DNA of 64,000 nucleotides, taken from Sulfuriflexus sp. Its GTDB lineage: Bacteria; Pseudomonadota; Gammaproteobacteria; AKS1. Location: NCBI GenBank assembly GCA_023134145.1, contig JAGLUW010000004.1:1-64000 (forward strand), read 5' to 3'. Shown here one piece after another: positions 2,472 to 52,697 of this stretch. A program made the translations under genes and the position numbers. The notes below the pieces were generated by a model that saw only the letters and a list, made by a program, of their open reading frames with translations, did no database searches and was not told the DNA's origin. The stretch's first letter is position 1. Each line of letters opens with the position of its first letter.

Positions 2472-2617
2472 AATACCCACATATTATTTAACTTGAACTT
2501 CGATATTAGCATTATAAATAGTAATAGGGTTTAGATCCTCATTTTCTCTAATATAGTAATAGACTCCATTTTAGTTATATATTTCCTATATTCATGTATT
2601 TCAAATAGAATTCATAA

Positions 2618-3070
2618 ATGACTGAAACACAACACATACAATTACCAACGCCGTCCGATACCGGTTGGATGCTCATTTTTATTTGCTGGTTATTAGCCGC
2701 AGCGGGCACATTGGGAAGCTTGTTCTTCAGTGAGGTGATGGGACTGAAACCGTGCGTATTGTGCTGGTATCAACGTATTTTCATGTATCCATTAGTGATC
2801 ATTTTTTTCGTTGGCTTATTTCCGCTTGATCGGGCTGTTTTTCGTTACGCATTACCCGTCGCGATGATAGGTTGGTGTTTTGCCGTTTATCATTATCTTG
2901 TTTACTCAGGCTATATTCCTGAGAATCTACAGCCATGCAGTGAAGATGCCTCATGTGCAGAAATTAATTTGGAATTGTTTGGTCTTATTACCATCCCGAT
3001 GATGTCCATACTTTCTTATACGGCAATCATTGTATTGCTTTTTATGTTTCGGAGAAGAACTCAATCATGA
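2618..3070 (+). CDS. DsbB/BdbC-type disulfide bond formation membrane protein
   Basis: Inner-membrane quinone-dependent thiol oxidase of the DsbB/VKOR-like group. It re-oxidises a periplasmic thioredoxin-fold oxidase. The 150-residue chain has four membrane helices (about 18-38, 54-72, 76-96, 119-145). The first cysteine pair C46-V-L-C49 lies in the family motif KPCVLCWYQR, and the second periplasmic pair C107...C113 lies in QPCSEDASCAE. It overlaps the next gene by ATGA (3067-3070), and that gene is a DsbA-like oxidase, so the pair forms one redox module. Pairing and size resemble the BdbC/BdbD systems rather than enteric DsbB, whose partner gene is elsewhere. Confidence 0.85.
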   Translation: MTETQHIQLPTPSDTGWMLIFICWLLAAAGTLGSLFFSEVMGLKPCVLCWYQRIFMYPLVIIFFVGLFPLDRAVFRYALPVAMIGWCFAVYHYLVYSGYIPENLQPCSEDASCAEINLELFGLITIPMMSILSYTAIIVLLFMFRRRTQS

Positions 3071-25506: not shown

Positions 25507-25678
25507 AAAGATAAAGAGTTAGTGGCATACCTTAGATTTATTCCATATTAGAATGTCCTGATGAAGCTGTTTTTTCTGTTCCTGGATTGTAAAGAAGATG
25601 TTGTAGCGTTATTCTTTTTATTATAAATCGAGGGCAGAGAAGTTTTTGCCTATAGCTAGTTTAGCGAGGTATCTCCTA

Positions 25679-26947
25679 ATGAAACATATCCAGCAGTTGA
25701 GTCTTTTATTCTCGGTGTTTTTAGCAAGCACATCATTGTTTGCTGCTGCACCTGCAAATGATCTAGTGCCAGATCATTATATTGTTATCTTGTCGGCTGA
25801 CTCTAATCCGGCCAGTGTGGCTAATGAGATGGCGGTGAAACATGGTTTGTCGGTACGTCATGTTTACCGATATGCATTGAATGGTTTTGCTGCGCGTATC
25901 CCCGCTGGGCGGTTAGCCGTGTTACAGCGTGATTCACGTGTTACCTCAGTAAGTCCGGATGCATATGTCAGTATTAACAAGAAATGTGCGACACCACCAT
26001 GTAAGGGTGGCGGCGGTGGTGAAGAGCCACCTCCAACAGTTAATCCGCAAGTTACGCCAACCGGTGTATTACGTATTAATGGTGATCTTAGTAGTACCTT
26101 AGCCGGTAATGGCAGTGGCAGTGTTGATGTAGATGTTGCGGTGATTGATTCCGGTATTTCAAACCATGCAGATCTAAACATTGCCGGTGGTATTAATTGC
26201 TCAAAGGGCAGAGCTAGCAAGTTTGCTGATGGTAACGGCCATGGCACACATGTTTCGGGCACGGTGGCAGCAAGGGATAATGATCTTGGTGTTGTGGGCG
26301 TGGCACCGGGTGCGCGTTTGTGGGCAGTGCGTGTGCTCAATAATGCTGGCAGTGGTTTTACCTCGGATGTAATTTGCGGCATTGATTATGTGACGGCCAA
26401 CGCGGATGTGATCGAGGTTGCCAACATGAGTTTGGGTGGCGGAGGTTCCGATACCGGTTGTAGTGGTGATGCCTATCATCAGGCAATTTGTAACTCGGTT
26501 GCTGCGGGTGTGACTTATGTTGTTGCTGCGGGGAATGAAGCTGACGATGCGTCGAACCATCGCCCTGCTGCTTTTGATGAAGTTATTACCGTTTCTGCCT
26601 TAGCTGACTTTGATGGTGAACGTGGTGGACTCGGTAGCCCAACTTGTCGAGCAGACGAGGATGATACCTTTGCCAACTTTAGTAACTTTGGGGCCGATGT
26701 AGATATTATTGCCCCTGGTGTTTGTATTCGTTCAACCTGGAATGATGGTGCTTATAATACGATTAGTGGTACATCAATGGCATCACCGCATGTTGCGGGT
26801 GCAGCGGCCTTATATAAAGCAGCTAACCCTACTGCAAGCCCGTTAGATGTAAAGGCAGCATTAATGGCGAGTGGTAGTAATGACTGGAATAGTGATGATG
26901 ATCCAGATGGTATGAAGGAGTCCTTATTGGATATCAGCGGGTTTTAG
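25679..26947 (+). CDS. Secreted subtilisin-like serine protease (S8)
   Basis: 422-residue exported protease. A signal peptide covers about 1-24, an I9 propeptide about 28-98 (DHYIVILSADSN... SVSPDAYVSI), then a Gly/Pro linker (PCKGGGGGEEPPPT) and the S8 catalytic domain (about 125-420). The triad is Asp157 in VAVIDSGISNHADL, His188 in GNGHGTHVSGTVAA and Ser366 in SGTSMASPHVAGAAAL; the oxyanion asparagine is in VVAAGNEADD. A TTG start further upstream (25646) would add 11 residues before the signal peptide, so the ATG at 25679, with GAGGT 9 bases upstream, is better. There is no C-terminal anchor. A terminator follows at once. Confidence 0.93.
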   Translation: MKHIQQLSLLFSVFLASTSLFAAAPANDLVPDHYIVILSADSNPASVANEMAVKHGLSVRHVYRYALNGFAARIPAGRLAVLQRDSRVTSVSPDAYVSINKKCATPPCKGGGGGEEPPPTVNPQVTPTGVLRINGDLSSTLAGNGSGSVDVDVAVIDSGISNHADLNIAGGINCSKGRASKFADGNGHGTHVSGTVAARDNDLGVVGVAPGARLWAVRVLNNAGSGFTSDVICGIDYVTANADVIEVANMSLGGGGSDTGCSGDAYHQAICNSVAAGVTYVVAAGNEADDASNHRPAAFDEVITVSALADFDGERGGLGSPTCRADEDDTFANFSNFGADVDIIAPGVCIRSTWNDGAYNTISGTSMASPHVAGAAALYKAANPTASPLDVKAALMASGSNDWNSDDDPDGMKESLLDISGF

Positions 26948-41849: not shown

Positions 41850-42395
41850 ATGGGGAACACACTTTTTGATCAGTTGAAGAAAGCCGGTCTTGCCGATAAA
41901 AACAAGGCGAATAAGATCAAGCAAGATAAATATAAGAATAAAAAGCAAAAGAAGAAAGGCAGTGCTGCCAAGCAGGTGGATGAGTCGAAATTGTTGGCGA
42001 AAAAGGCACTCGCTGAAAGTACTGAACGTGATCGTAAAATTAATTTACAGAAAAAAGAACAAGCTGATCGTAAGGCTATTGCTGCACAGATTAAACAATT
42101 AATCGAAACACACGGCGTGCAAGATCAAGATGGTGATATTATTTATAACTTTACCGATGCCAGTGTGGTTAAACATATATACGTTTCAGAGCAGGGTTAT
42201 AAATTACTCATGGCGGGTCGTTTAGTCATCGCAAAATTACTTGAAGGCTATGAGCTAGTCCCCGCGCCTATAGCAGAGAAGATCAAACAACGCGATCCGG
42301 AATCTATTATTGCGGCTGAACACAGTACCGAAGTCGAATTAGATGAAGATGACCCCTATGCAGATTATGCAATCCCTGATGACTTGATGTGGTGA
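41850..42395 (+). CDS. DUF2058 family protein (YaiL-like)
   Basis: 181-residue cytoplasmic protein of the DUF2058 family. It starts with NTLFDQLKKAGLADKNKANK, the usual MxNxLQDQLLKAGLV-like opening, followed by a very basic Lys-rich stretch (KQDKYKNKKQKKKGSAAK) and a predicted helix, then the conserved half: QIKQLIETHG, DIIYNFTDASVVKHIYVSEQ, LLMAGRLVIAKLLEGYELVP and an acidic tail ending IPDDLMW. It may bind ribosomes or RNA, but this is not established. GGAG lies about ten bases before the ATG, and the previous gene ends 13 bases upstream. Confidence 0.88.
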   Translation: MGNTLFDQLKKAGLADKNKANKIKQDKYKNKKQKKKGSAAKQVDESKLLAKKALAESTERDRKINLQKKEQADRKAIAAQIKQLIETHGVQDQDGDIIYNFTDASVVKHIYVSEQGYKLLMAGRLVIAKLLEGYELVPAPIAEKIKQRDPESIIAAEHSTEVELDEDDPYADYAIPDDLMW

Positions 42396-42437
42396 TGTAG
42401 AGTTTGTAATAACATGCCCGATTAGATTGGTAATAAT

Positions 42438-43211
42438 ATGTTTCAATTTATTAGTAATTGGCTTGATCGTCGTACTATTAGGCGTTCTACGGTGACGGAT
42501 ATTCAGTGGTTAAAGGCATTTAGTGCTTTACCACTGCTTAATAAATTAACAGCGGATGAAAAAACCAAGTTACGTAAATTAGCAATTCTATTTATTGATA
42601 CCAAGTCTTTTGAAGGCGCGCATGAGCTGGTGGTTACCGACCATATGGTGCTCATTATTGCTCTACAAGCTTGTTTGCCTGTTTTAGAGTTAGGTATAGG
42701 AGGCTATGTCGGCTGGACATCCGTAATTGTTTATCCTGCCGGTTTTGCACCAGAGCGTACGGTTACGGATGAATATGGTGTAACGCATCATGTGCAATCT
42801 AATTTAGCGGGTGAGTCATGGTTACGAGGGCCTGTCGTCTTGTCCTGGGATGAAACTGAACGTGGTGGGATTATTGATGGTAGCAATCTTGTGATCCATG
42901 AATTTGCACATAAACTGGATATGCAGAATGGTGTCGCAAATGGTTTTCCACAACTGCACCCTGAAATGTCATCAAGGTTATGGGCCGAGGCTTTGGGTGC
43001 CGGGTTTAAAGACTTTGTTAGTAAATGCAGCAATGGTGAATCAAAGGCTATGAAAATAGATTGCTACGGAGCAACTTCTCCTGCTGAGTATTTTGCAGTA
43101 CTCAGTGAGGTGTTTTTTGAACGCCCTGAACTTATTTTGGAACACTATGCCGATGTTTATGAGCAGCTAAGGCAGTATTACCGTCAAGATACCCTGACTC
43201 GATTGAGTTAA
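42438..43211 (+). CDS. mtfA: MtfA-family zinc peptidase
   Basis: 257-residue homolog of MtfA, a gluzincin-type zinc metallopeptidase that in E. coli binds the glucose repressor Mlc and so tunes sugar uptake. The HExxH motif is in NLVIHEFAHKLDMQNG (about residues 151-166), and the third ligand is a downstream Glu in SPAEYFAVLSEVFFERPELI. The opening block FSALPLLNKLTADEKTKLRK is typical. A conserved middle is VGWTSVIVYPAGF. Length matches the family (about 260-270). It follows DUF2058 by 42 bases, same strand. Whether Mlc is present is not known from this window. Confidence 0.9.
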   Translation: MFQFISNWLDRRTIRRSTVTDIQWLKAFSALPLLNKLTADEKTKLRKLAILFIDTKSFEGAHELVVTDHMVLIIALQACLPVLELGIGGYVGWTSVIVYPAGFAPERTVTDEYGVTHHVQSNLAGESWLRGPVVLSWDETERGGIIDGSNLVIHEFAHKLDMQNGVANGFPQLHPEMSSRLWAEALGAGFKDFVSKCSNGESKAMKIDCYGATSPAEYFAVLSEVFFERPELILEHYADVYEQLRQYYRQDTLTRLS

Positions 43212-43334
43212 AGCACTTTTATTTTAAGGTTTATAGTTTATCTATTCATAGCGAGAAAGTATTACCCTTTTTTTTCTTTAGGAGTACTCTGTAGAAATAA
43301 ATAATAATACAGCATCTTATCGGGAGTTCTAACT

Positions 43335-44897
43335 ATGAATAAAAATAGTGGTTTTCTGAAGCGCTACAGCGGAGCCCAATGGTCATTTTTTTGGGCCGGT
43401 ATTACATTCGGTGTTGCACAAATTATTTATATGATTGGCCTGTGGATGGAAAAGGTACAGGCAGGTAAGACGCCATCTTTAAAACCAATCACGGTAACCA
43501 CCGATCTTGGCAAGATGTTTCGCAGCATGGAAGTTTCCTTCTATCGTTTATTTGATCTCCCTGATTTTCAACTTTACGGAAAAGCTATCGATGGTGTTGC
43601 CTCAACGGGTGGCGCATTTATCCCCGGCATTGGTTGGCCTATTGTTGGCATGATCATTGGTGGTTGGTTAGTAACGCGAATGGAAAAAGAAAGTCGTGCT
43701 TGGGTTTACTACCCACCTAAGGTTCTATTCATTTCTTTTCTCGGCGGGATGGTCTTTAGTTACGGCACACGGTTAGCAGGTGGTTGTACATTGAATCATC
43801 TGATGGGCGGTATCCCACTGATGAATATTCATTCGTTTGTGACCGTATTCTTTATGGCTATTGGCGGCGCACTAGGGTTTTACATATTGAGCCGAGTTGG
43901 TATGGCATCTTATTTTAAACATCAGGAAACACGCTCCTATGTTTGCGGCAATGATCCTGGTGAATCAGCAACTTGCCCACAAGGTAAAAAAGGCACAAGC
44001 AATCCGCTCTACTGGGTTGGCTTATTATTCGCGATATTCTTTATTGGTATCGCATTTTATGGTGGTCTGTTTAATCCGGAGAGTCTGCAACATTTAAAGA
44101 AAGGTGAGTTGGTTGCTTTTGGTAAGTCAGTTGATAGCAAGGGTTGGTATTACGTTATCTTCACTTTAACTGCCGGTATTATTGGTGGCGTTGGTCTGGC
44201 CAAGAGCGGTATGGGTACAGAGTGCGCGCTGGTTTCATGGGAAGCGGGTGGCATGATGAAGAAGCACGATGGCCATTATGCGAAAATGGGCGTGCCACGC
44301 ATTACTCGCACGCTGATGCGCAGTTACTTACCGATGATCGGTCTAATGGCGCACTGGGTCGTGATGCTTGGTTTCATTGTATTCGCCTGGATAGCATTTG
44401 ATGTGTCTCCTGCTTTTTCCGGAGCGCTAAAATTCCAGACCACGGCAGGCAACCTGATCGGTGGTGTATTCTTAGGGTTGGGCGCAGTGATGCTGATCGG
44501 TTGTGAGATTCGTTCTTACATGCGAATTGGTATGGGCTACCTCAACACATTGGTAGGTTTTATGGGGTTTGCAATTGGTTACCTGCCATTCACCTTGAAC
44601 TACGCTGCACACAAGGAGTTCCTGTCTTCATCTGTGATGATAGAAACTTACAAATGGTATGAATATATTGCACCAAATAGTATTGCCGGACAGAAGGCCG
44701 TGCTGGCATTGTGGTGGGTAGTGCTACTGTTAGCTCTTATATATGTCATTAAGATCGGTGCAAGAAATGTTGGAGCAGCTACGAGTAGCCTTGTGCATAA
44801 AAGCACTGAAGATGTTCAAAATGAGATCGATGAAAAGGGCAAGCAGCAAGGTGGCAGCATTGATGGTGTAAGTGTGCCAGTTCCTGCTAGTGTTTAA
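43335..44897 (+). CDS. YeeE/YedE-family (TsuA-like) thiosulfate/sulfur transporter
   Basis: 520-residue polytopic membrane protein of the sulphur-transport family (PF04143). In characterised members (TsuA) thiosulfate is passed along cysteines through the membrane. About 11-12 helices are seen. Conserved cysteine/glycine motifs: TRLAGGCTLNHLMGG (about 149-163), SGMGTECALVSWEAGG (about 293-308) and LIGCEIRSYMRIGMGYLNTL (about 393-412), one in each repeat region. Other residues C198 and C207 lie in a loop (SYVCGNDPGESATCPQG). It is longer than small YeeE proteins. GGGAG precedes the ATG. Thiosulfate uptake fits the SoxXA-like cytochrome elsewhere in the window, though substrate is inferred. Confidence 0.83.
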   Translation: MNKNSGFLKRYSGAQWSFFWAGITFGVAQIIYMIGLWMEKVQAGKTPSLKPITVTTDLGKMFRSMEVSFYRLFDLPDFQLYGKAIDGVASTGGAFIPGIGWPIVGMIIGGWLVTRMEKESRAWVYYPPKVLFISFLGGMVFSYGTRLAGGCTLNHLMGGIPLMNIHSFVTVFFMAIGGALGFYILSRVGMASYFKHQETRSYVCGNDPGESATCPQGKKGTSNPLYWVGLLFAIFFIGIAFYGGLFNPESLQHLKKGELVAFGKSVDSKGWYYVIFTLTAGIIGGVGLAKSGMGTECALVSWEAGGMMKKHDGHYAKMGVPRITRTLMRSYLPMIGLMAHWVVMLGFIVFAWIAFDVSPAFSGALKFQTTAGNLIGGVFLGLGAVMLIGCEIRSYMRIGMGYLNTLVGFMGFAIGYLPFTLNYAAHKEFLSSSVMIETYKWYEYIAPNSIAGQKAVLALWWVVLLLALIYVIKIGARNVGAATSSLVHKSTEDVQNEIDEKGKQQGGSIDGVSVPVPASV

Positions 44898-44917
44898 ATA
44901 GAAAGTTCATATAAAAC

Positions 44918-44948
44918 CGGGGATCAGAGATTTATGCTCTGGTCCCCA
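44918..44948. repeat. GGGGATCAGAG hairpin between yeeE-like and RND genes
   Basis: CGGGGATCAGAG pairs with CTCTGGTCCCC over a short central loop. It is a compact member of the dispersed GGGGTCAGAG family and may also serve as a bidirectional gene-end hairpin for the two convergent genes. Confidence 0.6.
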
Positions 44949-44962
44949 GTACCTTAATCACT

Positions 44963-47900
44963 TTATGATGGCTCTTCTTGAAGTTCGTTGTTGTTATTTT
45001 CTATAACTTCTACAAAACCAAAATCTTCCATAATGGTATAGCTGGCAGGCAACACCAGTAATGTAAGGAAGGTTGAGGCGATCATACCGAAGATAACGCT
45101 GGTGACCAGAGGTATTAGTACCTGTGCTTGCAGGCTGGTCTCGAGTAATAATGGGAACATGCCCGCAACAGTTGTAATTGAGGTTAGGAAGATAGCGCGG
45201 AAACGATCTCTTACTGCCTGACCTGCGGCAGCGTGTAAAGACATGCCTTCACGGCTATGAATTTTTACATATTCGACCAGCAAAATTGAATCGTTCACGA
45301 CAATACCCGCGAGAGATACAAAACCGACCATACTGGGTAGGCTTAGATCTAATCCCATGAGTAAGTGCCCCCAAATAACACCAATCAGAGCAAGTGGAAT
45401 ATTGATCAGCACGACCAGCGGCTCACGGTAATTACGGAAGGTCAGACTCAATAATAAAAACACACCAGCAATACCGGCAATAAATCCACTCAAGACAGAT
45501 GTATTGGTCTCCTGTGAATTTTTGACTTCGCCTTCTAGACTGAATACCAGGCCGGGGTAGTTTTCTTGTAATTGAGGCAGGAAGCGTTTCTTGGTGTCAC
45601 TAATGACTTCTTTGGTATTCGCTATTTCACTGTCTATATCACCAGAGATGGTGACGGTGCGTTGATGATTGATGCGTACAATACGTGAAAATTCTCGGAC
45701 TTCATTTATTCGTGCTACCGAGGTTAGCGGGATCGCTTCGCCTTGTTTCGAAAATATTGTTAGCGCTTCAAAATCGCTTAGTGCACTTTGTGGTTCACTG
45801 TCTAATTTTATATTAACTTCATAGGCTTCACGGCCATGGTAGACATCACCAATTTTGCTGCCTTGATAAGCTGCGCGCAGTTGTAGTGATAATTGCTGTG
45901 CATCAAGTCCCGAATTTAATGCACCAGGATAGAGGCTAACGCTGAGTTGAGGTTTCCCCGGACGCAGATCATCCATAATGTTGGATACACCGGGATAACC
46001 GTTTAGCCAGTTTTGTAATTCCCATGAAGCGCGAGACAGTTGTTGTGGATCTTGGCCTTGTAGTCGTATTGAGATGGCCTGACCTGCTGGACCAAAAGCC
46101 GGTTCTTTATATTGAATGGAAATAGCGTCGGCAATAATAGGGGTGTTTTTTGACCATAAACGGCGTAAGTGGTTTAAGGAATTATTACGAGTTTCTGCAT
46201 CGAGTAAATCAAGGCTAATGGTTGCAAGGTGCCCACCTTCCTCGCCTGCATCAGCATTTGTACTGTATGAGACTTGAATATTCTTAACCAGTTTTCCTGA
46301 TTCTTCTGGTGGCAATTGCTTCAAAGATTTCTGTAAGCTATCCAGAAGTATTGAAACAACATCTTCTGTGCGTGAAAAGGGTGTGCCTTGTGGCATGATA
46401 ATACGCGTATCAAGAATGTCACCTTCCAGATCAGGGAAGGCCTTGAATTTAACGTAACCGCCAAAGATTAAACTAAGAGATATAATAAAAAGTGCAATGG
46501 CGCTGCCGAGTACGGCGTATCGGTAGTGAATTGCCATATCACCCATGACACCAACACGATCACGCAGCCGTTCGAAGCTTGCTTCAAAACGATTACGCCA
46601 GTTGGCACGCTTCTTATCATGTTGGTGTTCAAGTGAATGTTTGAGGTGGTGAGGTAAAATCAAAAAGGCTTCGACGAGACTGATAGTGAGTACGCTAAGT
46701 AGCACCACGGGTAATACACCCATGATCTGACCCATGTCACCTTTTAAAAATAACAGGCTGCCGAAGAGGATTGCCGATGTTGCAAAAGATGAAAACACAC
46801 CGCGTGCGACTTTGTGGATACCATCTATAGAGGCCTGTAATGGAGTTTTGCCGTTACGATACTCGGATTCAATACTCTCGGAAATAACGATGGCATCATC
46901 CATTAAGATACCAATGGCCATAAGCAATGCGACCATGGATATCATGTTGATGCTGATACCAAAGGCACTCATTAGTACCAGGCCACCAATAAATGAAATA
47001 GGTAAACCAAGTGCGACCCAGAAGGTATAACGCCAGACAAAGAATATGAGTAAAGCCAAGCTGGCAAGAAGCAGTCCCTGCCAACCGTTTGACAGCAATA
47101 GCTTCATGCGATCTTTGACAATGGATGCCGTATCTTGAGTAATGAGAAGTCGAGTGGTTTCGGGTAAACGAAGATTTTCTGCATTAACAAATTTTTCTAC
47201 AGCATCGAATATGGTTAAAGAGTCATCGGTAATGTTTTTAGTGATCTTTAATATTGCAGCAGGTTTACCATTCAGTTCGGTACGAACTTCTTCGTTAGTG
47301 AAATTATCAACAATACGTGCAATTTCACCAAGGCGTAGTTGCGCACCATTGATATTATTTAGGATAATTAGATCGGCGAGTTCACTGACTGTGCGTCGTT
47401 CATTGAGAAAACGGATTTGATAAGATAGCTCATCGGTATCCATTGTCCCCGCAGGCATATCCATAGACTGGCTTTTAATGCGATTAGCGATGTCTTCAAT
47501 ACTGAGTTGATATTGGCGCAGGCTTTCGGGTTTAATCAATACGCTGAGTTGGTGAGTCGAAAAACCGGAGATAGTAACAATAGGTACTTCTGGTAGCGCG
47601 AGTAAACGATCACGGTAATATTCTGCTAAGGCCTTTAATTCTGGTTGTGTTAATTGTGCATTAATGGCGACACTGACTACCGGTTTGGTACGGCCCAGTT
47701 CTTCTACTATTGGTTCTTCGGCATTATCTGGAAAATCAGTAACACTATCTACGGCAGCATTTACGTCATTTAAAAACTGCTGGATATTTCCTTCTTCCTG
47801 CATATCCAAGGTCAGTATGCCGATGTTGTCACGCGCTTCGCAGCGTTGTTCTTCCATAAAACTGATGCCATCAGTGATGTCTTCCAGACGATTGCAAATC

Positions 47901-48079
47901 CCTTCTTCTACTTCACTAGGGCTGGCGCCAGGGTAGGGCACAGTTACCTTTACTTTGTTGGTATCTATTTCTGGAAAACTCTCTTTATTAAGAGTGGGTA
48001 ATACAAGCATCCCAGCCATCAGAATGATAAACATCAAAATATTGGCGGCAGTTTGGTGGCTGGCGAAGTAGCGGATCAT
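44963..48079 (-). CDS. RND-family efflux pump, inner-membrane subunit (AcrB/HAE-like)
   Basis: 1038-residue proton-driven RND transporter with about 12 helices and two large periplasmic loops. Landmarks: NKESFPEIDTNKVKVTVPYP near the N-terminus, GASPSEVEEGICNRLED, the proton-relay aspartates in MAIGILMDDAIVISESIE, and in the second half PLALIGVIWGHLLMGLDLSL and VGFVSLAGIVVNDSILLVEY. It is the AcrB/MdtB-like rather than heavy-metal type, as the metal-specific CusA motifs are not seen. It forms an operon with the adaptor gene (two-base gap). No outer-membrane factor or regulator gene lies nearby, so it probably borrows a TolC-type channel. Substrate unknown. Confidence 0.93.
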   Translation of the reverse strand: MIRYFASHQTAANILMFIILMAGMLVLPTLNKESFPEIDTNKVKVTVPYPGASPSEVEEGICNRLEDITDGISFMEEQRCEARDNIGILTLDMQEEGNIQQFLNDVNAAVDSVTDFPDNAEEPIVEELGRTKPVVSVAINAQLTQPELKALAEYYRDRLLALPEVPIVTISGFSTHQLSVLIKPESLRQYQLSIEDIANRIKSQSMDMPAGTMDTDELSYQIRFLNERRTVSELADLIILNNINGAQLRLGEIARIVDNFTNEEVRTELNGKPAAILKITKNITDDSLTIFDAVEKFVNAENLRLPETTRLLITQDTASIVKDRMKLLLSNGWQGLLLASLALLIFFVWRYTFWVALGLPISFIGGLVLMSAFGISINMISMVALLMAIGILMDDAIVISESIESEYRNGKTPLQASIDGIHKVARGVFSSFATSAILFGSLLFLKGDMGQIMGVLPVVLLSVLTISLVEAFLILPHHLKHSLEHQHDKKRANWRNRFEASFERLRDRVGVMGDMAIHYRYAVLGSAIALFIISLSLIFGGYVKFKAFPDLEGDILDTRIIMPQGTPFSRTEDVVSILLDSLQKSLKQLPPEESGKLVKNIQVSYSTNADAGEEGGHLATISLDLLDAETRNNSLNHLRRLWSKNTPIIADAISIQYKEPAFGPAGQAISIRLQGQDPQQLSRASWELQNWLNGYPGVSNIMDDLRPGKPQLSVSLYPGALNSGLDAQQLSLQLRAAYQGSKIGDVYHGREAYEVNIKLDSEPQSALSDFEALTIFSKQGEAIPLTSVARINEVREFSRIVRINHQRTVTISGDIDSEIANTKEVISDTKKRFLPQLQENYPGLVFSLEGEVKNSQETNTSVLSGFIAGIAGVFLLLSLTFRNYREPLVVLINIPLALIGVIWGHLLMGLDLSLPSMVGFVSLAGIVVNDSILLVEYVKIHSREGMSLHAAAGQAVRDRFRAIFLTSITTVAGMFPLLLETSLQAQVLIPLVTSVIFGMIASTFLTLLVLPASYTIMEDFGFVEVIENNNNELQEEPS

Positions 48080-48081
48080 GA

Positions 48082-49440
48082 TTATTTTATTCCACTAGCG
48101 CGCTTGGCTAATGCTTTTTCATAATCAATGGCCTGTATAGGCGTTAGCGGCATGTCTTCGATCACAGGAATTAAATCATTAATGATGATTTGGTCGCCTT
48201 CTTCAATACCGCTGCGCACGATAACCAGATCATCTTGTTGTTGCTGAATATTAACGGTTTTGATGACTAAGCGATTATCTTTACTGACAACATAAACACG
48301 GCCGTAGTGTATCGCCTTGCGAGGAATAACAATGGCCTTGTATTTTGGTGCATAGAGTTCCACTGCCATAAACATACCTTTTAACAGTGGCGGCCTGCGG
48401 CCAGGAATTATTTTTTCATAGGGCCGATCTATGCCAACAACAATACCAATGGTACGGCGAACAGGATCAATAGATTCACTGAAGCGTAAAACCCGAGCAT
48501 TCCATATTGCATCAGGCATATCTCCGACGAGTTTTACTCGTGCGGATAAATTTAGATTAGCGAGTACATCCCGAGTAATACCAACGGCAGGTCGATCAAA
48601 GTTTTTATTGTCTAAGTGACCAACCAGAGAACGCATATGAAGAATAGGTAGTTGTGCGTTGATCTCTACACCGTTAATGTCGAGTGCCTCAAACAAGCTT
48701 GACCCTACATTAACGAATTGTCCTTTATCAACAGATACCTTACCGATGCGTGCGCTGAAAGGCAGGGTGATTTCTGTTCGACCTAGATTGGTTTTTTGTC
48801 CCTTGACCTGTTCTTCTGCACGAGTAATTTGAGCTTGTACAGTATCTTTGCGGCTGGCATAGGTATTCAGTTGCCCTTGTAACTCTGATACTTGTTGGCG
48901 GAGTTGAATCACCTTTTGTTCTTCGGCGTCTAATGTTGAGCGTGCAATCAATTTACGATCCCAGATACTGCGAATCCGCTCTAGTTCTTTTTCGCCTACT
49001 TGTAGATTTTTCTTTGCCAGCGCAAGAGAGCGGAGTGTTGTTTGTTTTTCGACGTCCAATTGTTTGAGTGAGGATTTACTCGCAGCCAGATCAGCCTGGG
49101 TTTGTTTCAGGCTGACTTCATAATCTTGAGAATCAATACGTATCACTATCGTATTGGCACTTATACTGTTGCCTTGTTTTAGATCGGGATGAATATAACT
49201 GATCTTGCCACGAACCTCGGCCAGTGTTTGTAGAGTGACTGTCGGCTCGACATTGCCATAGGCAGTGACCTTTGCACTAAAAGGAATGCGCCGTGCTGTA
49301 ATGGTGTCGACACTTTTGCTGGGCATTTCCGTACCAGCATGTTGTAAGGGGGTACGACTACTGATAAGCATTATCGCAATCAGTATCCCAAGACCAATAG
49401 CGATAAATAGTATATAGGGTTTTTGTAGGTGTTTTATCAT
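48082..49440 (-). CDS. RND efflux periplasmic adaptor (membrane fusion protein)
   Basis: 452-residue HlyD/AcrA-like adaptor. An N-terminal anchor helix (about 11-27) is followed by the barrel-sandwich half-motif (ARRIPFSAKVTAYGNVEP... VIRIDSQDYEVSLK), a long coiled-coil hairpin (about 115-215), the second lipoyl half (LGRTEITLPFSARIGKVSVD) and beta-barrel/MP domains with IVIPRKAIHYGRVYVV and GIEEGDQIIINDL. It bridges the inner-membrane pump and an outer-membrane channel. It is the first gene of a two-gene operon with the RND subunit two bases downstream. Confidence 0.92.
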   Translation of the reverse strand: MIKHLQKPYILFIAIGLGILIAIMLISSRTPLQHAGTEMPSKSVDTITARRIPFSAKVTAYGNVEPTVTLQTLAEVRGKISYIHPDLKQGNSISANTIVIRIDSQDYEVSLKQTQADLAASKSSLKQLDVEKQTTLRSLALAKKNLQVGEKELERIRSIWDRKLIARSTLDAEEQKVIQLRQQVSELQGQLNTYASRKDTVQAQITRAEEQVKGQKTNLGRTEITLPFSARIGKVSVDKGQFVNVGSSLFEALDINGVEINAQLPILHMRSLVGHLDNKNFDRPAVGITRDVLANLNLSARVKLVGDMPDAIWNARVLRFSESIDPVRRTIGIVVGIDRPYEKIIPGRRPPLLKGMFMAVELYAPKYKAIVIPRKAIHYGRVYVVSKDNRLVIKTVNIQQQQDDLVIVRSGIEEGDQIIINDLIPVIEDMPLTPIQAIDYEKALAKRASGIK

Positions 49441-49568
49441 AGCGGAACCACGTCATAGGTAATGATGCTTCAATCAATAGAATGTAACACAGGTATTAAT
49501 TAAGCGAACACTTATATAGACGGATGAGAATGATTGTGATTCTTGATTATTATTTATGTGTGAGCAAT

Positions 49569-49597
49569 AAAAAGGCCCATCACGAAGATGGGCCTTT
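49569..49597 (-). terminator. Intrinsic terminator of the large subtilase gene
   Basis: AAAAGGCCCATC and GATGGGCCTTTT form a 12-bp stem with a five-base loop. It lies 23 bases beyond the stop of the leftward subtilase gene, with T and A tracts on the two sides, so it can act in both directions. Confidence 0.85.
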
Positions 49598-49619
49598 TGT
49601 TATAGAAAAGATTCTCATA

Positions 49620-51749
49620 TTACTTCTTAGGCCCTCCTTTCTTAGTGCTTCCTCCATCAGTCGTTTTACCACCGCCACCACCTTTGGTGCTGCCATTGAT
49701 GGTAATTGTTACGGTTACTGCAGTAGAATTTTCAGCGCCATCATTGGCAACGTAACTGAACGTATCAGTACCAGTGAAGCGTTTCTTAGGTGTATAGGTG
49801 AAGCCACCTGTATTGGCATCGTAGCTAACCGAACCGGTACTTGGTGCGCTTGTCACATTGTAGTTTAGTGCATCACCATCTGCATCGCTGGCGCTGAAGC
49901 TGCTGCTTACAGGTGTGTTCTTTTCAGTAACTAAACTGAGTGCTGATGCAACAGGAGCTGTGTTTACTACTGGGTCAGTGGCAATAGGCTCTTCAGGTGC
50001 AACAGGTTCTTCAGGAATAACTTCTTCCGGTACAACAACCGTCACAGTGATTGTTGCATTGCTGCTTAGCTTAACGTCATCAGTGGCAGTAAAGCGAAAG
50101 CTCAAGCTTGCATTCTCAGTACCTGATATGAAACTAGCCGTCGTAGAGTCAGCGCCATTTAGTGCAACAGCGGTACCGGCAACTTGTGTCCACTGTTGTG
50201 CTGTTAAAGAACCATCATCACTTGCTTGAGCTACAAGTATGACTGTTTCGCTGGGGCCAACAGTAATGTCGGCATCAACACTGACGACAGGTGATGTTGA
50301 AACGGCATTGACACCGCGACTTGCATCAGCAATACCATCACCACAAAGTGCGGTGGTGCAACTTGAACCAGCAGGGAAAGAGCGTGCGGATGAAAGTAGT
50401 TTATTACTCAACGTTGAAGGTGATAAGAACTGACCTGTTTTTGCATGGTTAGCAGAAATCATTAATGAAACTACACCGGCAATATGTGGTGCGGCCATAC
50501 TTGTTCCTTGATAAAAGGCAAATACATTATCACCTGTTGCGTAAGTTGAACCTGAATCTAAGGTGGAAAGAATGCCATCTGGGTTCAAAGGTGATTCACC
50601 ACCAGGGGCTGAAATTTCAACCGTGCTGCCGTAGTTACTGTAATAAGTTTTACTTGCTGCGCGATTATTGGCAGCAACAGAAATAACATTATTACAACCG
50701 GCTGGAGTAAAACCGCTCGCATCCATGTTTGAGTTACCTGCGGCAACAACAATACTAGTACCTTGAGCAACAGCATCGTTGATAGCTAATTGCGTTGCAC
50801 CTGTTGCGCTACAAACATAACCACCGCCTAAGCTCATATTAATAACTTGTGCAGGAGTAGCATTGTTAGGAACACCGGCAACACTTATACCTGCTGACCA
50901 GCGAATTGCATCGGCAATGTCAGAGGTATAGCCGCCACACTTACCTAATACGCGAACAGGTTGGATCTTTGAAACCCAGTTTACGCCAGTAACACCATAG
51001 CCATTGTTACTTGCCGCGCCGATAGTGCCGGCAACGTGCGTACCATGCCATGAGCTATAAGAAGCAGGAGAGTCGGCATAACATTCACCGTAGTTAGACC
51101 AGTCACCGGCATCAGTTGGATCGTTATCACGGCCATTGCCATCATTGCCAACAAAGGCAGTACTAATAAAATCGTAACCGGCTACTGTGCGGCCAGCAAG
51201 ATCGGCATGCGGTAAGATACCTGTGTCGATAACGCTAATAACAACATTGTTACTGCCTGTTGTTACATCCCATGCAGCAGGTAGATTGATACCGCCGGGT
51301 TCAGAAACGCTGTCGTGATATTGCCAGTGATAGCTATTGTAAAAAGTATCATTAGGGATTTTTAGACTCTGCATAACAGCATCGGCTTCAACGCTTTCTA
51401 CATCAGGGTCATGGCGAAGTCGTTCAAGTAACCCGCGCATGGCTTGTTGGGGAAGACGGTCAGCTAATTTCAAGACATGAGAGCGGCCAGACATGCTGCG
51501 TGCATAAGAAATTTCAATGCCGGCGCGTACTGTTAAGTCTTGTAATTTCTCTTCGCGGCGAGAATTATTTTCAAGTGCATCATTATCTTTGTTAAAGCGA
51601 ATAATAATTTGATCTGTTGCAATATCGGCACGCTGCGTCAGTGTGCGGTCATGACCTGAGACAATCGTTTCTGCCGATAATATAGTGGAAGCAGATAGTA
51701 AGGATGCCAATATACTGGCGGTAAAAAGTGTTTTCTTGAAAGCTGACAT
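49620..51749 (-). CDS. Secreted multidomain subtilisin-like protease under c-di-GMP riboswitch
   Basis: 709-residue exported S8 protease. Signal peptide 1-26 (STILSA/E); an inhibitor-like propeptide at about 30-125; catalytic domain about 140-505 with Asp175 in ISVIDTGILPHADL, His235 in SSWHGTHVAGTIGA, Ser417 in QGTSMAAPHIAGV and the oxyanion Asn in VVAAGNSN. Cysteine pairs suggest disulfides. Then a PKD/REJ-like domain (VDADITVGPSETVILVAQAS), a Pro/Glu linker with PEEPVAPEEP, a cadherin-like domain (NTPVSSSFSASDADGDALNY ... GTDTFSYVANDGAENST) and a Gly/Lys-rich end. GGGGAA before the ATG at 51749 sets the start; the frame runs further into the riboswitch leader. Likely cell-surface or matrix proteolysis tuned by c-di-GMP. 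Confidence 0.93.
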   Translation of the reverse strand: MSAFKKTLFTASILASLLSASTILSAETIVSGHDRTLTQRADIATDQIIIRFNKDNDALENNSRREEKLQDLTVRAGIEISYARSMSGRSHVLKLADRLPQQAMRGLLERLRHDPDVESVEADAVMQSLKIPNDTFYNSYHWQYHDSVSEPGGINLPAAWDVTTGSNNVVISVIDTGILPHADLAGRTVAGYDFISTAFVGNDGNGRDNDPTDAGDWSNYGECYADSPASYSSWHGTHVAGTIGAASNNGYGVTGVNWVSKIQPVRVLGKCGGYTSDIADAIRWSAGISVAGVPNNATPAQVINMSLGGGYVCSATGATQLAINDAVAQGTSIVVAAGNSNMDASGFTPAGCNNVISVAANNRAASKTYYSNYGSTVEISAPGGESPLNPDGILSTLDSGSTYATGDNVFAFYQGTSMAAPHIAGVVSLMISANHAKTGQFLSPSTLSNKLLSSARSFPAGSSCTTALCGDGIADASRGVNAVSTSPVVSVDADITVGPSETVILVAQASDDGSLTAQQWTQVAGTAVALNGADSTTASFISGTENASLSFRFTATDDVKLSSNATITVTVVVPEEVIPEEPVAPEEPIATDPVVNTAPVASALSLVTEKNTPVSSSFSASDADGDALNYNVTSAPSTGSVSYDANTGGFTYTPKKRFTGTDTFSYVANDGAENSTAVTVTITINGSTKGGGGGKTTDGGSTKKGGPKK

Positions 51750-51844
51750 AGTTGTTCCCCATCCAATAGCGCGATGTCTGGGGCTGTGCAAGGTCAAGAG
51801 GATTATCAGCTGGGCACACGCGAAATAGAATTCACGTGTGAAGT

Positions 51845-51935
51845 GCATCTGGTAATCCCGCTGTCGTAGGAATTGAATCCCCGTAGACCGGTGACTTTGC
51901 GTCTCCACCTTTCGATGGGTTTGCCTTTTTCAGTT
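51845..51935 (-). promoter_or_regulatory. Cyclic-di-GMP-I (GEMM-I) riboswitch
   Basis: Read on the minus strand, the region carries the core words of the GEMM-I aptamer in order: GGCAAACC, a GAAA tetraloop receptor partner (CGAAAGG), GACGCAAAG, then CACCGG with TCTAC, and finally AGCGGGATTACCAGATG, which closes the P3 side. Positions: aptamer start near 51935, end near 51845. A hairpin (CACACG... CGTGTG, about 51813-51840) follows as a possible expression platform, and the protease ATG is about 95 bases downstream. Binding of c-di-GMP is established for this class; the on/off direction here is unknown. Confidence 0.9.
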
Positions 51936-52175
51936 CATCGCGTTGTTAACAATAACAGTACGTTAAAATGACTATAGAGGGTATTTCGTGAATTACAAAC
52001 TCCGGATTTGAAGTCTTTTGATATATTTTGTATTTGGTAAATTAATTCAATAACTTATGATGTAAAGTTAAATGTTAATATTTGTAAACATAGACGATCT
52101 ATAAATGCAGGGTAAATTATCACATAATTATTAATGTTATTATCGCTTACTCTATTATTTGGCAATTATTAAACA
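51936..52175. other. AT-rich intergenic region, promoter of the riboswitch transcript
   Basis: Between the riboswitch and the SpoU-type methyltransferase I see no gene. The DNA is AT-rich and must hold the leftward promoter for the protease leader and the rightward promoter for the methyltransferase. I found no convincing hexamer pair to name. Confidence 0.4.
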
Positions 52176-52697
52176 ATGAAAGAATCAAACGTCAGCATTG
52201 GCTTAATCAATCCTAAGAGCCCTTATAATGTGAGTTCGGTAATGCGAACAGCAGGGAACTTTGTAGTTGATAGCGTTTTTTATACAGGTAAACGTTACCC
52301 GCGTGCCTTAATGCGTAATCCGGGCTTGCCTGATATGCATCGCAAGGTAGGTCAGGCTATCTCGCTCACAGAAGTGACTTCCATAATCGATGCAGCATCA
52401 AACGATATGAAGTTGGTGTGCATAGAGTTCGCTGAAAATGCCATAGCGCTACCTGAGTTTGAACATCCTGATAATGTTTTATACATCTTTGGTCCAGAAG
52501 ACGGCACGATGAGCCAAGAAATTATCGATAGCGCAGATGCGGTTGTATATGTGCCAACCATCAATAGTATGAATCTGGCTGCTACCGTTAACGTGGTACT
52601 TTATGATCGTTTAGCTAAATCGTCACAAGAGTTTGAAGGTAACGAGTTAATTTTACAGAGTCGAGATATTAATAATAGTTTAAAGGTGAAAGAATAA
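52176..52697 (+). CDS. SpoU/TrmH-family RNA 2'-O-methyltransferase
   Basis: 173-residue SPOUT-class methyltransferase. Motif 1 is INPKSPYNVSSVMRTAGNF (catalytic Asn/Arg region, about 11-29), motif 2 is NVLYIFGPEDGTMS (SAM-binding G-x-E, about 100-113) and motif 3 is VYVPTINSMNLAATVNVVLY (knot, about 128-147). It lacks the N-terminal substrate-binding extension of TrmH/RlmB, resembling TrmL-like short members in size. It methylates tRNA or rRNA ribose; the target is unknown. The start is supported by position; the ribosome binding site is weak. Confidence 0.85.
   Translation: MKESNVSIGLINPKSPYNVSSVMRTAGNFVVDSVFYTGKRYPRALMRNPGLPDMHRKVGQAISLTEVTSIIDAASNDMKLVCIEFAENAIALPEFEHPDNVLYIFGPEDGTMSQEIIDSADAVVYVPTINSMNLAATVNVVLYDRLAKSSQEFEGNELILQSRDINNSLKVKE

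Follow-up and report, generated by a model that had tools for sequence, protein, structure and literature searches.

The window analyzed here, a 64,000-nucleotide stretch of a contig from Sulfuriflexus sp., carries on its minus strand a riboswitch aptamer followed by the gene for a secreted protease of the subtilase family. The features of this locus, with the evidence used to assign each, are as follows.

51971-51998, minus strand: possible sigma-70-type promoter, TTGTAA-16-TATAGT, approximately 36 nt upstream of the aptamer (9/12 matches)
51848-51935, minus strand: c-di-GMP-I (GEMM-I) riboswitch aptamer (cmscan with RF01051, Vc2-numbered positions)
49620-51749, minus strand: secreted subtilase, 709 aa (Pfam domains and motif positions)
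49569-49598, minus strand: predicted intrinsic terminator after the protease stop codon, AAAAGGCCCATC-TTCGT-GATGGGCC-TTTTT (spacer sequence and fold)

The protease ORF begins with an ATG at 51749, 7 nt after a Shine-Dalgarno (SD)-like GGGGA, and its N-terminus, MSAFKKTLFTASILASLLSASTILSA, resembles a signal peptide when read by eye. The S8 domain spans residues 167-455 (Peptidase_S8, PF00082; E 3e-49, passing the cut-off), and its catalytic Asp, His, and Ser motifs are intact (DTG at 175, HGTH at 235, GTSMAAP at 415). This domain is followed by an accessory region that comprises a K319L-like_PKD domain (494-571) and a Big_9/cadherin-like domain (596-683; Pfam Big_9, Cadherin_5, and Cadherin_4), and the C-terminus is a basic tail rich in Gly and Lys. 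A GTG start at 51908, which would give a 762-aa product from an ORF crossing the aptamer, was rejected because the signal peptide and the SD begin at the ATG at 51749. Elsewhere, the window (25646-26947, plus strand) encodes another S8 protease, which has an I9 inhibitor propeptide and no riboswitch.

The terminator at 49598-49569 on the minus strand, predicted to be strong, was found from the sequence of the spacer and its fold, having been omitted by a simple scan. Given its position after the stop codon, the riboswitch and the protease appear to form a single-gene transcription unit, with the RND pump genes located further along lying outside it. The upstream neighbor is a divergent gene for a SpoU methylase. 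Sigma-70-type sites as good as the candidate promoter at 51971-51998 are no more frequent in the region than expected by chance.

Identity and probable ligand of the aptamer

The RNA at 51935-51848 is a full-length class I c-di-GMP aptamer located on the sense strand within the 5' leader. In a whole-window Rfam scan run at the curators' threshold, it was the sole match, aligning to RF01051 over model positions 1-87 of 87, not truncated, with 80.9 bits (E 2.5e-14) against a gathering cut-off of 35 bits. The preliminary description had proposed a GEMM-I aptamer from five short motifs, all of which were found, in the GEMM-I order, on the minus strand; its proposal that the aptamer precedes an S8 protease with PKD-like and cadherin-like domains is likewise borne out by the Pfam matches and by the protease ATG located 98 nt downstream. 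No second copy of RF01051 was found when the same search was run on the host assembly, which comprises 40 contigs totaling 2.3 Mb and is 89% complete.

The consensus structure is kept except for one non-standard pair (C-A in P2). Alignment of the aptamer to Vc2 numbering places the expected base at each of the ligand contacts equivalent to G20 (51925), A47 (51898), and C92 (51852), and the expected bases at the interhelical pair equivalent to C44-G83 (51901 and 51861). The position equivalent to G20 is a selectivity factor among cyclic dinucleotides, influencing the choice between c-di-GMP and cGAMP (PMC9262584). A genuine aptamer could accordingly respond to another cyclic dinucleotide, such as 3',3'-cGAMP, and an aptamer that precedes an S8 gene in another genome (L092 in G169) has an A at this position and fits RF03167 better. 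We consider such a ligand very unlikely for the window aptamer, which has a G at 51925 and scores best with RF01051, so that c-di-GMP is the probable ligand. In the sample of aptamers from the class, G occupies this position in 102 of 111 and A in 9 of 111, by a fixed-offset tally in which a few aptamers may be misregistered.

With 24 GGDEF and 9 EAL domains encoded in the host genome, c-di-GMP signaling is very probably present. The genome also contains one GspD secretin above the cut-off, which makes export of the protease past the outer membrane possible.

Leader folding and the direction of switching

Ensemble folding of the leader predicted two further elements.

51800-51858, minus strand: predicted alternative (anti-aptamer) stem, 51858-51849 (GGAUUACCAG) paired with 51809-51800 (CUGAUAAUCC)
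51757-51785, minus strand: predicted ribosome-binding-site hairpin, CCCCA (about 51785-51781) paired with UGGGG (51761-51757)

The anti-aptamer stem is predicted to bury the C92 position and to enclose a hairpin (CACACGUGAA...UUCGCGUGUG). Its pair probability was approximately 1 in the unconstrained ensemble at every transcript length tried and zero when the aptamer was enforced, that is, the two structures are mutually exclusive in the predicted folds. In the riboswitches Cd1 and pilM, sequestering of the C92-equivalent residue abolishes binding of the ligand (PMC9262584). The duplex taken alone is within chance expectation, with 607 of 5000 shuffled sequences (12%) yielding one as good.

The hairpin over the ribosome-binding site was predicted in both the free and the aptamer-enforced folds. 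With 5' extended transcripts, the SD was modeled to open more cheaply in the free state, by 1.1-2.6 kcal/mol relative to the bound state; with a minimal transcript lacking the 5' extension, the cost was about equal or slightly reversed. The modeled accessibility thus varies with the assumed 5' end and the transcript length, and in the leader of the closest homologue, described below, the modeled difference was mixed. A call of ON or OFF from folding alone was dropped, leaving only a weak lean toward OFF. A simple scan, the same one that omitted the terminator at 49598-49569, detected no terminator-like element between the aptamer and the ATG. The folding results together with this leader favor translational OFF control: the switch would act at translation rather than termination, and we lean weakly toward OFF at high c-di-GMP.

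We consider it fairly probable that a class I c-di-GMP riboswitch in the 5' leader controls the production of a Sec-exported S8 protease by translational repression at high c-di-GMP. High c-di-GMP would fold the aptamer and hold its 3' strand off the downstream anti-aptamer strand, such that less protease would be translated. When c-di-GMP drops, the anti-aptamer stem would form, the start site would become more open, and the protease would be made; it would then trim surface or matrix proteins, its putative substrates, as cells leave the attached state.

The opposite direction is appreciably less probable but still a serious contender: c-di-GMP would raise the level of the protease, which would act in the attached state as a nutrient-scavenging or matrix-maturing enzyme. 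Such an ON switch has a parallel in Vc1 of Vibrio cholerae, which lies upstream of the gene for the secreted protein GbpA and regulates it positively (PMC4744006), and is compatible with the many secreted proteins encoded downstream of c-di-GMP-I aptamers and with the minimal transcript, in which the modeled cost of SD opening is slightly lower when the ligand is bound. The folds with an extended 5' end, however, lean toward OFF, and PPEP-1 of Clostridioides difficile, the sole proven riboswitch-controlled secreted protease known to us, is an OFF case.

Inheritance of the unit and recurrence of the protease linkage

A search of 369 genomes of the class placed the closest homologue of the protease, by a wide margin, in genome G097 (52% identity, E 8.7e-205), with the same domain order. 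This gene, too, is preceded by an RF01051 aptamer (77.6 bits), located 101 nt before the ATG, and it is the only one of approximately 30 homologues checked to share the riboswitch with the window gene; RF01051 was not found at the 28 other homologue loci scanned (L118-L145) or at L014. The two proteases group together in a clade of a maximum-likelihood tree (support 100/99). Their gene neighborhoods are unrelated, which indicates that the riboswitch and the protease stay together while their surroundings change. The simplest reading is that the unit was inherited or transferred as a whole. In G097, the unit is directly preceded by a same-strand gene for a CHASE-GGDEF protein (L156:10410-12373).

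The conservation of the pair also bears on whether the window aptamer could be a decayed or chance structure devoid of regulatory function. The single copy in the genome and a platform pairing that alone does not exceed chance would fit such an origin, but the score of 80.9 bits, the retention of every contact residue, and the persistence of the aptamer before the sister protease in another family, where the remaining leader has diverged, make it highly improbable.

Neither the protease nor the riboswitch was found in three genomes of the same genus, so that the pair is an accessory trait and close relatives provide no covariation for the platform. In one of these genomes (G001), the genes that in the window flank the block (41850-42395 and 52176-52697) are adjacent, with no protease or riboswitch. 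The window interval 42395-52176, approximately 9.8 kb, encodes a sulfur transporter, an RND pump, an HlyD protein, the protease, and the riboswitch. From this comparison, the block looks like an accessory segment that was either inserted here or lost in G001.

The class sample comprised 111 aptamer matches in 66 genomes, and 96 downstream ORFs were scanned for domains; the downstream gene was taken as the longest ORF starting no more than 500 nt from the aptamer, a pick that is sometimes wrong. Peptidase_S8 was present in 4 of the 96, compared to approximately 0.06 expected from the S8 density of the same genomes, about 120 domain matches per 205 Mb, assuming one gene per 1,050 bases. The enrichment has a P value of about 5e-7, which rises to 3e-5 when the window is left out and to 2e-3 when G097 is left out as well. 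Genes for secreted proteins of all kinds often follow c-di-GMP-I aptamers, and the S8 enrichment may in part reflect this broader one. More distant S8 genes in G250 and G169 also lie behind such aptamers, which suggests that the link between riboswitch and S8 protease arose more than once.

Other proteases encoded downstream of aptamers include two Peptidase_C1, one trypsin-like, and one M12B-like protein. Behind c-di-GMP-I aptamers we observed an M12B reprolysin-like protease at L039 (G201), a trypsin with a PKD domain at L106 (G134), and a papain-like protease with a lectin domain at L078 (G331). At L092 (G169; 2537-2650, minus strand), an S8 gene follows an aptamer of the c-di-GMP-I-GGC type (RF03167) whose selectivity position is an A; with its 11 GEMM-type aptamers, G169 is possibly a cGAMP or mixed system. 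Same-strand pairs of c-di-GMP-I aptamers, possible tandem arrangements, occur at L059 (G057:C36:975-1279), L049 (G276:C7:719338-719649), and L105 (G324), with the members of the first two pairs approximately 140 nt apart.

Relation to known systems

A literature search for a c-di-GMP riboswitch paired with a subtilase or subtilisin found no paper describing that combination; a study of MogR in Bacillus thuringiensis came up and was judged off-topic. Switching of surface proteolysis by c-di-GMP at the RNA level is not new, given the precedent of zmpI/PPEP-1; the novelty here lies in the type of protease, in the bacterial group, and in the recurrence. The one proven riboswitch-controlled secreted protease that we know of would thereby be joined by a case from another phylum involving a different family of proteases, and the loci in the window, G097, G250, G201, G134, and G331 offer material for testing c-di-GMP control of extracellular proteolysis. 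A far broader proposal is that c-di-GMP-I riboswitches came to control secreted proteases on more than one occasion, giving Gram-negative bacteria a general RNA-level counterpart to PPEP-1 and LapG that ties S8, M12B, trypsin-like, and papain-like proteases to dispersal; we put this forward tentatively and regard it as rather unlikely.

The preliminary description had drawn a parallel with LapD/LapG. What it said of the class of riboswitch, of its probable ligand, and of the gene under its control is supported, but the parallel does not extend beyond analogy. The resemblance to LapD/LapG/LapA, where c-di-GMP governs proteolysis of surface adhesins, is functional, of logic and not of parts: in that system a protein receptor restrains a periplasmic C93 protease after translation, whereas no match to a LapG-type C93 peptidase (Peptidase_C93, PF06035) was found in the host assembly (89% complete).

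V. cholerae is a proteobacterium in which the same RNA family occurs as Vc1 (gbpA) and Vc2 (VC1722), with Vc1, like the window aptamer, leading a gene for a secreted protein. The regulated genes differ, and Vc1 is a positive element with no apparent terminator or anti-SD (PMC4744006).

The nearest precedent is zmpI/PPEP-1 of C. difficile and not LapD/LapG. In C. difficile, as at the window locus, a class I c-di-GMP riboswitch leads the gene for a secreted protease (zmpI/ppep-1, CD2830), which is repressed at high c-di-GMP, and the protease releases adhesins that have class II ON riboswitches of their own (PMC6366702, PMC11477304). The two systems differ in that PPEP-1 is a metalloprotease whose adhesin substrates are known, whereas the window enzyme belongs to the S8 subtilases and carries PKD and cadherin-like domains, and in that the class I riboswitches of C. 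difficile are transcriptional OFF switches, whereas the leader in the window has no terminator that we could see.
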